Assembly: GCF_019048865.1 (NCBI RefSeq)
Contig: NZ_CP077604.1
Coordinates: 3,224,001-3,288,000 of the forward strand
Direction of reading: 5' to 3'
DNA from: Aquihabitans sp. G128
GTDB lineage: Bacteria > Actinomycetota > Acidimicrobiia > Acidimicrobiales > Iamiaceae
Length of the DNA: 64,000 bases
The translations under genes were made by a program, and so were the position numbers. Every line of letters starts with the position of its first letter. The stretch's first letter is position 1. The notes under the pieces were generated by a model. That model ran no database searches. It saw only the letters and a list, made by a program, of their open reading frames with translations, and was not told the origin of the DNA. Positions 50,271-56,068 of this stretch are shown piece after piece.

Positions 50271-51695
50271 ATGAGCTGTGCCTGCCACCCTGACCCCGCC
50301 GACCGTGGGCCCGCCGAAGCCGCCGGCGTGAGCCGCCGGGCCGTCATCGCCGGTGGCCTGGCCGCCGGCCTGGTGCCCGCACTGGGCTGGGCCGGCACCG
50401 CCGGCGCGGCGCCCCGGGGCGCCGACGACGGCACGGGCACCGCCGAGGGCACCGGCCCCGGGCCCACCACCAACGACTTCGGCTTCCTGCCGCCCCGCCC
50501 GGCCACCGAGGTCCACCAGCAGAACATCATGTTCCCGGTGCTGCCCGACGCCACCCTGGGCAAGGCCACCTGGACCGACACCTACCTCGCCCCCCGCAGC
50601 AACGGCCGCAAGCACGAGGGCCAGGACCTCATGGGCAAGAAGCTGCTGAAGCTGCTGGCCTGCGTCGACGGCACCGTGGTCGAGCTCCGCTACGAGACCG
50701 GCGGCAACTCCCTCTACATCAAGGGGGTCGACGGCTACTACTACTGCTACCTGCACATCAACAACGACACGCCCGGCACCGACGACGGCAAGAACCCAGC
50801 GGCCTACGCCTTCGCTCCCGGCCTCGCCATCGGCTCCGTGGTCAAGCGGGGCCAGCACGTGGCCTTCCTCGGCGACAGCGGCAACGCCGAGGCCACCGGC
50901 TCGCACTGCCACTTCGAGATCCGCCTCCCCAACGCCAAGTGGTACAACGCCGCCGCCTGCAACGCGAAGTACTCCCTGCAGGCGGCCGAGCCCGCCAAGC
51001 TGCGGGCCCCGGTCGGCCCCGAGGCCTTCGCCCCGGCCGCCGGCGCCAAGCCCTTCGCCCAGCGCCAGGCCGACGACTTCCTCGGCGCCGTGCCGTCGCA
51101 GGCGTGGCTGACCTCGGCCATCTCCAACCTCGAGGGCGGCACGATCTCGCCCGACGCGTTCATCGAGAGCCAGCTCGCCACCGGCCGGGTCCAGGCCTTC
51201 ACCAACCCCGTCATGCGCCTCTACCTCGCCGCCTTCGGCGGGATCCCGGCCTACGACGGCGTCCTGTACTGGGTCCGCCAGTGCCGGGCGGGGCTCACCC
51301 TCGACAAGGCCGCCACCGGCATCGTCGACTCGGCGAAGTTCACCACCCTCTGGGGCACGCTCTCGAACCGCGAGTTCGCCCGCCGCATCGAGCTGAACCT
51401 CAAGGGCGTCGAGCCCACCGCCGCCACTCTGGCCAACCTCACCGCCAAGCTCGACGGGGGCATGACCCGCCCGGCGCTGGCCCGCGAGCGCTGCGAGGAC
51501 AGCACCTACCGGCCCACCATCGCCAACAAGATCCGCGTGCTGACCATCTACCACGCCATGCTCCACCGGGCCCCCGAGGCCAACTGGTGGACCACGTGGT
51601 CCGACCGCGACCGCACCAGCGCCACCGGCCTGGGCGACCTCATCCGGTCCATCCGCACCGGCGGCGAGTACGCCAAGCGCTTCCCCGCCAAGTAG
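50271..51695 (+). CDS. Tat-exported M23 family metallopeptidase with DUF4214-like domain
   Basis: A 474-residue secreted protein. A twin-arginine signal (SRRAVIAGGLAAGLVPALG, about residues 23-41) is followed by the LytM/M23 domain with metal ligands in KHEGQDLMG (His, Asp) and GSHCHFEIRLP (HxH), which cuts peptidoglycan or acts as a hydrolase activator. The C-terminal 200 residues contain DUF4214-like helices (VMRLYLAAFGGIPAYDGVLYW; ILTIYHAMLHRAPEANWW-like segment), often found in surface or matrix proteins. The N-terminal CACHPD before the signal is odd. A TATCGT at about 50199 could be its -10. Confidence 0.88.
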   Translation: MSCACHPDPADRGPAEAAGVSRRAVIAGGLAAGLVPALGWAGTAGAAPRGADDGTGTAEGTGPGPTTNDFGFLPPRPATEVHQQNIMFPVLPDATLGKATWTDTYLAPRSNGRKHEGQDLMGKKLLKLLACVDGTVVELRYETGGNSLYIKGVDGYYYCYLHINNDTPGTDDGKNPAAYAFAPGLAIGSVVKRGQHVAFLGDSGNAEATGSHCHFEIRLPNAKWYNAAACNAKYSLQAAEPAKLRAPVGPEAFAPAAGAKPFAQRQADDFLGAVPSQAWLTSAISNLEGGTISPDAFIESQLATGRVQAFTNPVMRLYLAAFGGIPAYDGVLYWVRQCRAGLTLDKAATGIVDSAKFTTLWGTLSNREFARRIELNLKGVEPTAATLANLTAKLDGGMTRPALARERCEDSTYRPTIANKIRVLTIYHAMLHRAPEANWWTTWSDRDRTSATGLGDLIRSIRTGGEYAKRFPAK

Positions 51696-51830
51696 CGCCG
51701 GGCCCGGCCAGGCCGGGCCAGGCTCGGCCGATCGCCACCGCCACCTCCTGGCGAACCGGGCTGACATCTGGCCGCCCCGACGACCAGAACCCCACCCACC
51801 ACGGCGGGTGTCGGCGTCGACCGCTCGGGT

Positions 51831-54023
51831 TCAGGGCCGCGAGCGACGGGCGATGGCCCGGGCCCAGGCGCGGGCGCCCGCCCCGCTGGAGCGCAGCGAG
51901 GCGCGGGCCTGCTGGGCCGAACGGCGGGCGCGGAGGCGGACCGCTCGAGCCTGGTCGGTCACGCCTGCGGCCCGGGTCCGGATGGCGTGCCCGACAGCAC
52001 GGCGGGACGCGCCGGCGCGCTGGGCCGCCGACCGGAGGCTGGCGCCCACCGCTCGAGCCGGCGCGACCGCCGAGCGCAGCCCGGACCGGATCGCCCGTCC
52101 CGTCGACCGCACCGAGGACGTCGCGGCCCCACCAGCGCGCCGGAGCGCCGCCACCGCCGCTCGGGCACCGGCGGCGCCGGCAGCCGCAGCCGAACGGATC
52201 GGCGCCAGTGCAGCGCCGGCCAGGCGGCGGACCTGTCCCCACCCGCCCGCGATCGCCGCTGCCGACCCCCGGACCAGGCCTGCGGCGCCTCGGGCGATCG
52301 CCCGCACGGGTGCGACGCTCGCACGCAGCCCACGGCCAACGCTGCTCAGCACGACCTTCGTGCCGGCCCCGATCGCCGCCCCACCCCGCCGTACGGCTCC
52401 GACGAGGAGGACCGCGGGTCGCAGCCCGGCGCGTCCGATGGCCACCGCCGCCGCTCCGGCACGTCGGAGCCCCACGCCCGCCCCTCGTACGACGAGCGCC
52501 ACCGCTCGGCCGACGGCCTGCACCGGTGCGACGATCACCCGCACCGTCGCCCGGATCGCGGATCCGGCCTGCGCCACCAGCCCCCGCACGCCCCGACCGA
52601 CCGCCAGCAAGGGCGAGGCCACCGCACGAGCACCTGCCCGCACGGCCTCCCCCACCCGCTTCCCCAGCGCCCGCGCGCCGCGCCCCAACCGCCGCACCGG
52701 CACGGTGATCGCACGAGCACCCGCGGCCAACGCCGCCCCGACACCGCGCACCATCGCCACCACACCCCGACCCAGCTGCCGCAGCGGTGCCACGACGACA
52801 CGGGCACCGCTGCGCAACGCCACCCCGATCCGCCGCACCACCGCCACCGCACCCCGACCCAGCTGCCGCACCGGTAGGGCCACGCCACGAGCCGCGGCCC
52901 GCAGCGCAACGCCGACCCGCCGCACCAGAGCGACCGACCCCCGACCGAACGCCCGCACCGGCAGAGCCACCGCCCGCGCCCCGGCACGCAGCGCCACCCC
53001 GACCCGCCGCACCAGAGCGACCGCACCCCGGCCCAGCTGGCGCACCGCCGCAGCCACGCCACGGGCGCCGCCCCGCAGCGCAACGCCGACCCGCCGCACC
53101 AGGGCGACCGACCCCCGGCCGAACGCCCGCACCGGCAGAGCCACCGCCCGCGCCCCGGCGCGCAGCGCCACCCCGATCCGCCGCACCAGAGCGACCGCAC
53201 CCCGACCGAGCTGGCCCATCGGAGCGACGACGACACGGAGGGCGGCACGGAGGGCGACGCCGACGCGCCGCACCAGGGCGACCGCACCCCGGCCCAGCTG
53301 GCCCGCCGCCGTCGCGATGGCCCGCCCCGCCGAGCGAACGGCGTGGTCCGCTCCTCGGCCGAGGGCCGCCAGGCTCCGACCTGCTCCAGCCAGCACCGCC
53401 CATGCGGCGCGGAAGGGCCGGGCGGCGCCCCGCACGAGCGCCGAGGCGGCGCGGTCGAAGGCGTCCTCGACCCGACGGCCCAGCTCCACCGCCCCGTGGC
53501 CGATGCCGGCGACGCCTCGGCCCAGGCCCTTGAGCGCCTCCCACCCGAGCACGAACGGCAGCAACGGCACGGCGAGGATGCGCCCCACCACGCCGATCTC
53601 CTGCTCCTCACCGGCCGGCGCCACCGTCCCGCCGGCCCGGGGCTGGGTCGGCGCCGAGCCCGACGACCGTGCCGGCGCGGTCGGTGCGCTCGACGTCGGA
53701 CCGCGCCGGGGTGGCGCGGCGACCTGCGCCACCGACGGGTCCGGCGCCGGCGCCACGCTCGAGGGTGCCGGCGCCGACGCGGGACCACGACGGGCCCCGA
53801 CTCGCGCCGGTGGGGGCTCGAGGTCGAACGGCCCCGGCCTCCGGGTGGGCTCACCGACCTCCCCGCTCGGCGGCACCGCCGCGGTCTGGCCCACCGGCTT
53901 GCCTGTCGCGGGGCCGGAGTCGGTCGCCGCGGGCGCGGCCGGAGGCGCCAACGCACCGGGCACCGCGGCCCCGGCACCCGCTCCGTCCCCGGCGGGGGCG
54001 GTCTGGCCCTCAGCCCCGCCCAC
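51831..54023 (-). CDS. Basic alanine/arginine-rich protein made of 29-residue tandem repeats
   Basis: A 730-residue protein. Residues about 1-130 are Pro/Ala-rich and probably disordered; residues 135-160 form a hydrophobic helix (VVGRILAVPLLPFVLGWEAL). The rest is a long, very basic series of amphipathic segments. The best repeats are 29 residues, QLGRGAVALVRRVGVALR with a tail such as AGARAVALPVR, alternating with AFGRGSVALVRRVGVALR. About eight are regular, with more diverged copies towards the C-terminus. There are no enzymatic motifs. The GTG start overlaps the end of the upstream two-TM gene by 14 bases. Together with the GyrB-like ATPase gene it forms a three-gene operon. Membrane or nucleic-acid binding is guessed from charge only. 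Confidence 0.72.
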   Translation of the reverse strand: MGGAEGQTAPAGDGAGAGAAVPGALAPPAAPAATDSGPATGKPVGQTAAVPPSGEVGEPTRRPGPFDLEPPPARVGARRGPASAPAPSSVAPAPDPSVAQVAAPPRRGPTSSAPTAPARSSGSAPTQPRAGGTVAPAGEEQEIGVVGRILAVPLLPFVLGWEALKGLGRGVAGIGHGAVELGRRVEDAFDRAASALVRGAARPFRAAWAVLAGAGRSLAALGRGADHAVRSAGRAIATAAGQLGRGAVALVRRVGVALRAALRVVVAPMGQLGRGAVALVRRIGVALRAGARAVALPVRAFGRGSVALVRRVGVALRGGARGVAAAVRQLGRGAVALVRRVGVALRAGARAVALPVRAFGRGSVALVRRVGVALRAAARGVALPVRQLGRGAVAVVRRIGVALRSGARVVVAPLRQLGRGVVAMVRGVGAALAAGARAITVPVRRLGRGARALGKRVGEAVRAGARAVASPLLAVGRGVRGLVAQAGSAIRATVRVIVAPVQAVGRAVALVVRGAGVGLRRAGAAAVAIGRAGLRPAVLLVGAVRRGGAAIGAGTKVVLSSVGRGLRASVAPVRAIARGAAGLVRGSAAAIAGGWGQVRRLAGAALAPIRSAAAAGAAGARAAVAALRRAGGAATSSVRSTGRAIRSGLRSAVAPARAVGASLRSAAQRAGASRRAVGHAIRTRAAGVTDQARAVRLRARRSAQQARASLRSSGAGARAWARAIARRSRP
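52660..53355 (-). repeat. Array of 87-bp tandem repeats encoding 29 residues each
   Basis: The phrase CGCACCA(G/C) recurs exactly every 87 bases, at 52747, 52834, 52921, 53008, 53095, 53182 and 53269 on the plus strand, with a degenerate copy at 52660. Units at 52921-53094 and 53095-53268 are nearly identical as 174-base pairs, a higher-order duplication that must be recent. Repeats further out have decayed at the DNA level but keep the 29-residue period in the protein. Confidence 0.85.
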
Positions 54024-54747
54024 GGCGGCCGCCTCGGAGCTCGTCGCGGATGGCCTCCAGCCGACGCAGGGTGCTCGCGGGATCGAGCCGATCGAGCTCG
54101 TCGCGGGCGGCCACCACGGCGTCGGCATCCGCGGTCGCACCGGGCTCGGCGTCCGGCGCGGCAGGCAGGGCGCGGAGCTCGGCCACCAGCGCCTCGATCG
54201 CCACCGTCCGCTCCTCGACGTAGCCGACCTCGCGGTCGGTCCCCGGCGCACGGCCGTCGAGCAACGACGCCGCCTCGAGGACCGCGCCGTGGCCGGCCGC
54301 CACCGCCGCGCTCGCCGCGCCCGCCACCTCCAGCAGCGCGCCGTAGGCCGCCGCCAACCGCCGCCCGACCTCGCTGCCGACGTCGAGCGGCACCCCGGTG
54401 GCCAAGGCTGCGCTCGTCCGACGACCAGCACGCAGCTGCCGGCCCCGCCGCCAGGCGCTGCGCACCGGCAGCACGCAGCCCAGTCCGGCGGCGAGGATGC
54501 CGATCACCAGGACGAACGTCGAGCCCCCGAGCAGCCCCCACGCCACCAGGGCCAGCCCGCCCGCCACCAGCGTGGCGTCGAACCAGCCCGGGCCGCCCTC
54601 GACGTCAGGCAGCAGGTCGTCGATCAGCTCGTCGAGCTCGTCTCGTGACCGGCCGGGCGCGGTCTCGAGTGGCCGCAGCGGCCCCGGCTCGCGCGGCACC
54701 ACCACCACCGCCCTGCCGTCCTGGACCCCCCGGTCGTCGTCAGCCAT
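54010..54747 (-). CDS. Two-TM protein with helical C-terminal domain, middle gene of the GyrB-like operon
   Basis: A 245-residue protein with an acidic N-terminus (RSRDELDELIDDLLPDVEGG), two close TM helices (ATLVAGGLALVAWGLLGG and TFVLVIGILAAGLGCVLPV, about residues 58-98) and an alanine-rich, coiled-coil-like cytoplasmic region (LRRLEAIRDELRGG near the end). No family recognised. GAGGAGGC 4 bases upstream supports the ATG. It begins 24 bases after the GyrB-like gene and its 3' end overlaps the repeat-protein gene, so all three are probably made together. Confidence 0.75.
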   Translation of the reverse strand: MADDDRGVQDGRAVVVVPREPGPLRPLETAPGRSRDELDELIDDLLPDVEGGPGWFDATLVAGGLALVAWGLLGGSTFVLVIGILAAGLGCVLPVRSAWRRGRQLRAGRRTSAALATGVPLDVGSEVGRRLAAAYGALLEVAGAASAAVAAGHGAVLEAASLLDGRAPGTDREVGYVEERTVAIEALVAELRALPAAPDAEPGATADADAVVAARDELDRLDPASTLRRLEAIRDELRGGRRGRG

Positions 54748-54771
54748 CGCCGCCTCCTCGCGACGACCGGT

Positions 54772-55878
54772 CTACCCCCTCCGCGCACCCCCGCCGACAC
54801 GACTGCGGGTGAGCACGCGCGACCGCAGGTCGGCGTCGAGCTCGGGATGCTCCCGAAGGGCCCGTGGCAGGCCATCGGCGATCGCATCGGCCACCAGCCA
54901 CACCGCGGCCGGGCTGGCCAACCGCTGCCGGGTGGGCCCGGGGAACTCGATGTCGAGCATCTTCACGTGCAGCAGGGCTCGAAGCCCCTTCAGCACCTCA
55001 CCCATCGGTCCGCGCCCGAACACCTCGCGCAGGCCCTCCTCGATCCCCTCCTCGTGGCGGCCGCCTTCGACCGTCGACACGTAGTTCCCGTACGAACGGA
55101 TGGCGGGCTTCCAGCTGCCGTCCCACCCGAGCGCCAGGTCGACCACGTTGCGGTCCCGCTCGAAGTGCAGGAGCAGGGGCGGGTCGGGGATGCGCCAGCC
55201 GTCGTGCGCCAGGATCGAGTACTCGTGGTCGTAGGCCGGTCGCAGGTCGTCGACCGGCCCGAACACCCGCCGGCCATCGGCATCGGTCGACAGCTCCGTG
55301 GTCAGCCCGGGCGTGAGGTGGGCGAGGGCGCGCAGGTGCTCGGCGAGCCCTTCGATGCTCGGCCCGGCCCCGTCGAACACCGCAGGATCGGGGAGGAACC
55401 GCACGGTGGTGCCGCTCGCCGTGGCCGGACCGACCCGCTCGAGCGCCGAGCTCCGCCACCCCTGGGCGAAGGACTGGCGGTGCGTGCCGGCCGGGCTGCG
55501 GACCTCGACCTCGAGCTCGGCGGACAGGGCGCAGACCGGGCCGAGCCCGATGCCGACGGAGAGGTGCACGTGCGGCACGTGGCCGTCGGCCGTGGCCGTG
55601 GCCGTGTCGCGGAACGAGGTGAAGCTGCGCTCCAGGAACGAGGTGCCGTCAGGGCCCGCCGCGATCGAGATCCCCGGACCGTCGTCGTCGACGGTGACCC
55701 ACCCGTCCTCCGCGAGGTGGACCGCGATGCGGGTGGCGTGACCGCCGAGCACCTGGTCGAAGCTGTTCGCCACGACCTCCATCACGAGGTGGGTGAGCCC
55801 CCCTGGGCCCGTGCCCCCGATGTACATCCCGGGGCGCTTTCGCACGTGGGCCAGCTGATCCGAGAGGGTGTCGACCAT
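54772..55878 (-). CDS. GyrB-like GHKL ATPase lacking the TOPRIM domain
   Basis: A 368-residue homologue of the N-terminal half of DNA gyrase subunit B. The start VRKRPGMYIGGTG is a gyrase hallmark, followed by GHKL motifs: EVVANSFDQ (Glu 34, Asn 38), VDDDGPGI (residues 63-70) and a glycine-rich lid SVGIGLGPVCALS (107-119). The transducer domain ends with LHVKMLDIEFPGPTRQRL, where gyrase has the QTK loop; the lysine is replaced by arginine. The protein then stops: no TOPRIM or tail domain. It cannot be a gyrase subunit by itself; an ATP-driven clamp or switch is plausible. It heads an operon with two novel genes behind a TACGAT leaderless promoter. Confidence 0.88.
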   Translation of the reverse strand: MVDTLSDQLAHVRKRPGMYIGGTGPGGLTHLVMEVVANSFDQVLGGHATRIAVHLAEDGWVTVDDDGPGISIAAGPDGTSFLERSFTSFRDTATATADGHVPHVHLSVGIGLGPVCALSAELEVEVRSPAGTHRQSFAQGWRSSALERVGPATASGTTVRFLPDPAVFDGAGPSIEGLAEHLRALAHLTPGLTTELSTDADGRRVFGPVDDLRPAYDHEYSILAHDGWRIPDPPLLLHFERDRNVVDLALGWDGSWKPAIRSYGNYVSTVEGGRHEEGIEEGLREVFGRGPMGEVLKGLRALLHVKMLDIEFPGPTRQRLASPAAVWLVADAIADGLPRALREHPELDADLRSRVLTRSRVGGGARRG

Positions 55879-55884
55879 GCCCCG

Positions 55885-55890
55885 ATCGTA
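55885..55890 (-). promoter_or_regulatory. Leaderless -10 element (TACGAT) of the GyrB-like operon
   Basis: On the minus strand TACGAT ends exactly 6 bases before the ATG at 55878. No ribosome binding site precedes the ATG, and the first two codons read MV-D, as usual for short N-termini of gyrase-type ATPases. Confidence 0.55.
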
Positions 55891-55935
55891 CTCGTCCGGG
55901 GGCGTCCACGACCGGCCGGCGACGGTGTCAGATCA

Positions 55936-56035
55936 TTGTGTCACAAGGGTTTGCGGGCAATCTGCGAGAAATCCGAAGGGTCCCTCCGAGGGCGGCCTGG
56001 GACCGGTCGAGAGGGCCCTCCAGAGCGCCTTCGGA
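55936..56035 (+). other. Structured region between the GyrB-like operon and the phosphatase gene
   Basis: This stretch is rich in inverted repeats: TTGTGTCACAA (55936-55946), GGTCCC/GGGACC (55979-55984 with 55999-56004), CCCTCCGAGGG (55982-55992), GAGGGCCCTC (about 56011-56020) and outer arms TCCGAAGG (55972-55979) and CCTTCGGA (56028-56035). It could be a small RNA, a structured leader or an operator cluster. I do not recognise an RNA family. Confidence 0.4.
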
Positions 56036-56068
56036 GGGGGTGGGGGCGACGTGCGAAGATTGGCCCTT

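Follow-up and report, generated by a model that had tools for sequence, protein, structure and literature searches.

What could a gyrase-like ATPase, a membrane protein and a long repeat protein do together? We analyzed three adjacent genes for such proteins in a 64,000-nucleotide stretch of the Aquihabitans sp. G128 genome (the window). A sequence-only reading of this DNA had proposed that they form a three-part system. We asked which of the three genes belong together in other genomes, and what the encoded proteins are likely to be.

Gene arrangement and insertion site

All three genes are on the minus strand. The first (54772 to 55878) encodes a 368-residue ATPase, which was characterized by GyrB model matches, tblastn, and residue alignment. 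Exactly 24 bp downstream is the gene for a 245-residue membrane protein, TM (54010 to 54747), which was studied by hydropathy, homologue comparison, and AlphaFold2. The gene for the 730-residue repeat protein, REP (51831 to 54023), has a GTG start and overlaps the TM gene by 14 bp; it was analyzed by repeat statistics and hydrophobic moment. The sequence-only reading had given the same frames, coordinates, gap, and overlap, and all were found again here. The arrangement, with its 24-bp gap, suggests that the ATPase gene is part of the TM-REP transcription unit. The window genome was assembled as one 4.9-Mb contig. Its full gyrBA genes are beside recF, dnaN, and dnaA, about 12 kb from the locus.

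The three genes are enclosed in a lineage-specific stretch of 4.37 kb (51696 to 56068, strand not applicable) between an M23-peptidase gene and an inositol-monophosphatase-like gene. These two flanking genes adjoin in sister genomes of the genus and the family. In one of them (G008), they are 63 bp apart, and the inositol-monophosphatase-like protein is 91% identical to that of the window. None of the three genes is at this site in the family genomes. Therefore, the simplest reading is that the cassette was gained in the window lineage. The other carrier in the family, G015, has the TM-REP pair elsewhere in its chromosome. No mobile-element ends were found at the cassette. The M23-peptidase gene (50271 to 51695) is itself variable, with 37 to 60% identity between family genomes, compared with 66 to 95% for the PrfC and phosphatase neighbors.

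A -10-like TACGAT box (55885 to 55890, minus strand) precedes the ATPase ATG by six bases. This is a leaderless spacing, and a CATACT box has a like spacing in homologues. The three genes had been placed behind this one promoter; the box is indeed there, but a consensus promoter scan did not pick it up. The window TM gene has a GAGGAGG ribosome-binding site (54753 to 54759, minus strand), recognized from the sequence and by contrast with the TM starts of homologues. In three homologous loci (G135, G291, and G040), an identical CATACT box is located exactly six bases 5' of the TM ATG. Therefore, with a ribosome-binding site here and a promoter-like box there, the window TM gene reads as an internal operon gene. 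The TACGAT box before the ATPase gene and the ribosome-binding site before the TM gene would be compatible with insertion of the ATPase gene between a promoter and the pair. The CATACT boxes upstream of TM at L117, L092, and L093 have the spacing of leaderless-type promoters in Acidimicrobiia.

The GyrB-like ATPase and its relatives

Residues 8 to 360 of the ATPase match GyrB models, and then the protein ends (NF004189, E = 5e-52, aligned to positions 20 to 385 of 641). This agrees with the original description of a gyrase-like GHKL ATPase that stops after the transducer. The protein comprises the GHKL and transducer domains only, and the full gyrB of the genome is a separate gene. It aligns over its full length with the N-terminal 43-kDa fragment of GyrB/ParE at 30 to 42% identity, and it has the RKRPGMYIG, E..N..D, DDGPG, and GTTVRF motifs. 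The GHKL domain retains DxGxG, the catalytic Glu, the Asn and Asp that bind Mg, and the threonine of GTTVRF; the residue roles follow those of the GyrB 43-kDa fragment. Unlike GyrB/ParE, the ATPase has no TOPRIM, as the chain stops after the transducer, and the N-terminal arm is missing. The ATP-lid motif GGLHGVG is changed to LSVGIGLG, and the QTK switch loop is PTR. The reported change of the QTK lysine to arginine is thus present, but the glutamine is replaced too. Judged by these residues and domains, the ATPase most likely still binds ATP, and it most likely cannot make a gyrase.

An assembly error had been named as a possible cause of a missing TOPRIM. We searched the operon by tblastn with the genome's own GyrB, and only GyrB residues 41 to 400 aligned, with no TOPRIM remnant in any frame. 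This result, together with the 24-bp spacing to the next gene, led us to reject such an error. The gene is an unbroken frame of 368 codons, and its coding signature is normal (codon-position GC of 0.73/0.51/0.94).

We found no orthologue of the ATPase in 24 genomes of the family, 397 of the order, and 396 of the phylum. Matches in these genomes covered most of the query at identities of 42% or less, and one 64-residue fragment had 59%. The matches listed are gyrB genes, either frames as long as gyrB or pieces of gyrB where a contig ends. A scan of genome contigs with the C-terminal half of the ATPase found no relative. Short GyrB matches in G008 and G016 proved to be pieces of full gyrB genes, and for G010, where a short match had also come up, there was no short GyrB-like gene. 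In the tree, the ATPase is a very long branch of unsure placement outside the family's GyrB clade, which rejects a recent duplication of the genome's own gyrB. Some order genomes have a second full-length GyrB/ParE-like gene, which forms a separate long branch (L108, L109, L110, L112, and L113).

Stand-alone TOPRIM-less GyrB-like genes are present on Streptomyces and Kitasatospora plasmids (L118:4938-6110, L119:4914-6083, L120:3295-4473, L121:3923-5113, L122:3914-5104, L125:2938-4113, and L123:3938-5110). Their products of 389 to 396 residues, and the 369-residue PDB entry 3cwv, named "DNA gyrase, B subunit, truncated," equal the window ATPase in domain content and size. In most of the Streptomyces proteins, QTK is STR or ATR, comparable to the PTR of the window. 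However, their catalytic Asn is replaced by W, Y, or R, whereas the window ATPase retains it. The plasmid genes apparently represent a non-catalytic GyrB-derived family without a described function. The Streptomyces genes and the window ATPase are long branches in the tree and share no supported clade. No TM or REP gene is beside any of the plasmid genes within the annotated stretches. The sequence-only reading had held that homologues lacking the other two genes would speak against its three-part system, and these nearest stand-alone relatives with annotated surroundings are all solo. A literature search found no paper on TOPRIM-less stand-alone GyrB ATPases or on 3cwv.

The TM-REP pair

The TM-REP pair occurs in 7 of the 397 order genomes, that of the window included, and as one remnant; the carriers are scattered among Acidimicrobiia. 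TM relatives were found in eight of these genomes (counting the window's and the remnant), in five families and at 32 to 57% identity. There were none in the 396-genome phylum sample outside the window's own genome. Plasmids and viral contigs gave none either, which led us to reject a phage or plasmid origin. The REP homologue is directly downstream of TM, with the order kept, in G135, G165, G015, G158, and G291, and as a remnant in G101; the G040 locus ends inside TM at a contig end. REP starts inside the TM gene by 14 (window), 17 (G135), 8 (G015), and 11 (G158) bases. This overlap in four loci suggests translational coupling.

The ATPase is absent next to TM-REP in the seven other genomes, one of which has the remnant and one the locus cut by the contig end. 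The six pair carriers that were searched in full have no short GyrB-like gene, and the window genome alone in the sample has all three genes together. The expectation of conserved synteny holds for the pair, whose TM relatives span five families, but not for the ATPase, which is beside it in one genome. With the pair found without the ATPase and the plasmid ATPases found without the pair, a conserved three-part system is not supported. TM-REP is a real, rare, and undescribed two-part unit, absent from the family libraries searched. The window TM and REP have no match in Pfam, NCBIfam, PHROG, or PADLOC, and a defence system was rejected on the PADLOC result.

The TM protein contains a VVVP..PGPL motif, an acidic LIDDLLPD-type segment, a two-TM hairpin, and a basic stop. 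The hairpin (residues about 56 to 99; 54451 to 54582, minus strand) is evident by hydropathy and kept in all homologues, in line with the two-TM helical protein first described. RSAWRRGRQLRAGRR directly follows it. Therefore, the N- and C-terminal ends are probably both cytoplasmic. Every member has an excess of acidic residues among its first 50; the N terminus of the G165 protein is cut by a frameshift or a wrong start. Among the TM genes, conservation is lowest at third codon positions, which argues for selection at the protein level. AlphaFold2 (three sequences) modeled residues 121 to 195 as a helical bundle with a pLDDT of about 90, and elsewhere at low confidence. The cytoplasmic part is thus predicted to be a three-helix bundle. 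A profile search found no PDB match to TM, and a fold search with the model gave nothing significant.

REP has a net charge of +97, almost all from Arg. It consists of a Pro-rich leader, a conserved LAVPLLPxVxxWE motif, and a long cationic predicted amphipathic helix. The N-terminal motif, VGRILAVPLLPFVLGWEALK (residues 146 to 165; 53529 to 53588, minus strand), is also seen in G135, G015, G158, and G291. After the leader, the LAVPLxPxVxxWE type is found in the window, G135, G158, and G291, and in weaker form in G015. Eight similar 29-residue repeats occupy residues 242 to 473 (52605 to 53300, minus strand) according to lag-identity statistics. The lag-29 identity is 35% over the whole protein (shuffle 99% limit, 0.19) and about 70% over residues 241 to 470 (limit, 0.29). 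These values are far above the limits, and the proposed 29-residue repeat in this basic protein is secure.

Twenty-nine residues make 8 helical turns. The hydrophobic moment of the window REP is highest at 99.5 degrees (3.62 residues per turn), where it is 1.01 versus a shuffle maximum of 0.44. At the heptad angle (102.9 degrees) it is only 0.04, which rules out a canonical heptad coiled coil, and it is 0.11 at the 11/3 angle versus 0.89 at 29/8. Over residues 151 to 500, the phase hardly changes (150 to 163 degrees for segments with starts from 151 to 470), and over the final third of the protein it drifts. Arg is in one sector, and V, L, and I are in the opposite one. Exact tandem duplication of 29 residues alone would give such coherence, and it is therefore the diverged homologues that carry the amphipathic argument. 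In five REP proteins, the maximum is at 99 to 100 degrees, at about 0.6 to 1.1, where the median over the other angles is near 0.1. One of the five is from G158, which has diverged repeats, a Lys/Glu composition, and a much lower-GC genome. By its periodicity, REP is predicted to form an amphipathic helix that runs on for hundreds of residues without a break. Gly and Pro occur in each repeat and may break the helix. The structure model of REP had a mean pLDDT of 45, too low for a fold search.

A candidate membrane coat and the alternatives

We tentatively suggest, at somewhat less than even odds, that the TM-REP core is a membrane-surface coat made of an anchor and a giant cationic amphipathic helix, and that the ATPase is a lineage-specific addition. 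In this scenario, TM would form a hairpin in the inner membrane, its two ends on the cytoplasmic side, and REP would be a very long alpha-helix on the cytoplasmic membrane surface. The hydrophobic stripe of REP would be in the lipid, and its arginine stripe would face the acidic headgroups and the acidic TM tail. TM would anchor or nucleate REP, and the two would coat, stiffen, or curve a membrane patch, with perilipin 4 on the lipid droplet as a parallel. In the window genome, the pair would have acquired the TOPRIM-less GyrB-type ATPase upstream, in one transcript. The ATPase may switch the coat by ATP-dependent dimerization, or it may be a hitch-hiker. Membrane binding by REP, TM-REP contact, co-transcription, and any role of the ATPase are what we infer from the sequences. 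Lipid binding is suggested by sequence periodicity, and a cationic helix of this kind could also bind DNA, RNA, or polyphosphate. The membrane-associated basic repeat polymer proposed earlier agrees with the REP and TM sequences, but its link to the ATPase comes from a single genome; the other proposal, a DNA-binding complex, is a possible alternative. The fuller idea of a TM-anchored helical coat switched by a gyrase-derived ATP clamp outside DNA topology is in our view quite improbable.

The ATPase could also be a decaying or passenger gene before the pair, which would still allow TM-REP to be a membrane coat. Its very long branch, its altered QTK and lid, its absence from every relative, and the loss of the catalytic Asn in the Streptomyces stand-alone homologues point this way. 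However, the intact frame, the normal coding signature, and the retained E, N, D, and T residues speak against it, and we consider a decaying or passenger gene somewhat unlikely. Another reading is a single three-gene machine: the repeat polymer would be loaded or switched by the GyrB-like clamp, and the ATPase gene would have been lost or relocated in other genomes. It would account for the tight operon, the single insertion holding all three genes, and the retained ATP-binding residues. We consider it unlikely, with the ATPase beside the pair in one of eight genomes and no short GyrB-like gene in the others searched. The altered QTK, lid, and N-terminal arm, and the leaderless-type promoter box that TM has for itself in three homologues, also stand against it.

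A third view takes REP as a histone-like nucleic-acid binder tethered by TM, with the GyrB relic marking a DNA-topology role such as chromosome membrane attachment. The Arg-derived charge of REP, the homology of the ATPase to GyrB, and the 12 kb between the locus and gyrBA and recF-dnaN-dnaA are in keeping with it. In G135, moreover, TM-REP is immediately preceded, on its own strand, by a topoisomerase IB gene (L092:7644-9304) and a small gene. However, five other carriers have topoisomerase IB at another place, and none was found in G158. This adjacency looks accidental, and we rejected the topology link drawn from it. The pair is also at different sites in different genomes, and the strong, regular V/L/I face of REP is atypical of Lys/Ala-rich H1-like tails, so we regard a nucleic-acid binder as unlikely. 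Far less probable still is a phasin-like coat of PHA granules or a relic of a phage-tail tape measure. These proteins also have long amphipathic helices, and weak profile matches came from two REP homologues. The G158 REP matched Phasin_2 (E = 3e-4, below the cut-off), and two homologues matched tape-measure PHROGs (E of about 1e-5). Such weak matches are expected between amphipathic Ala-rich helices. PHA synthase is present in G101, G135, and G291, but it was not found in five carriers (G000, G015, G040, G158, and G165). No tail genes were seen beside the copies, whose neighbors are housekeeping genes where identified, and TM has no viral-contig or plasmid relatives.

For the membrane coat, the nearest analogue in form, though not in membership, is perilipin 4. 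In that protein, near-identical tandem repeats extend over hundreds of residues and make one uninterrupted giant amphipathic helix, and the repeat is a near-neutral, weakly hydrophobic 33-mer of 11-mers, a 3-11 helix (PMC5889406). REP shares the long tandem-repeat amphipathic helix, but it has no sequence relation to perilipin 4. Its repeat is an Arg-rich 29-mer with 3.62 residues per turn and a V/L/I hydrophobic face. With a period of 29 and the low moment at the 11/3 angle, it lacks the 11-residue repeat of a 3-11 helix.

The ATPase may be a gyrase clamp that is re-used outside topology, as one genome only would suggest. Should REP prove to lie on membranes, bacteria would have an independently arisen counterpart of the giant amphipathic helices of eukaryotic lipid-droplet proteins. 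REP would bring its own membrane anchor and a different repeat length, one that is near-exact in helix register. It would then allow a clean test of how membrane targeting depends on repeat length, charge, and hydrophobicity.
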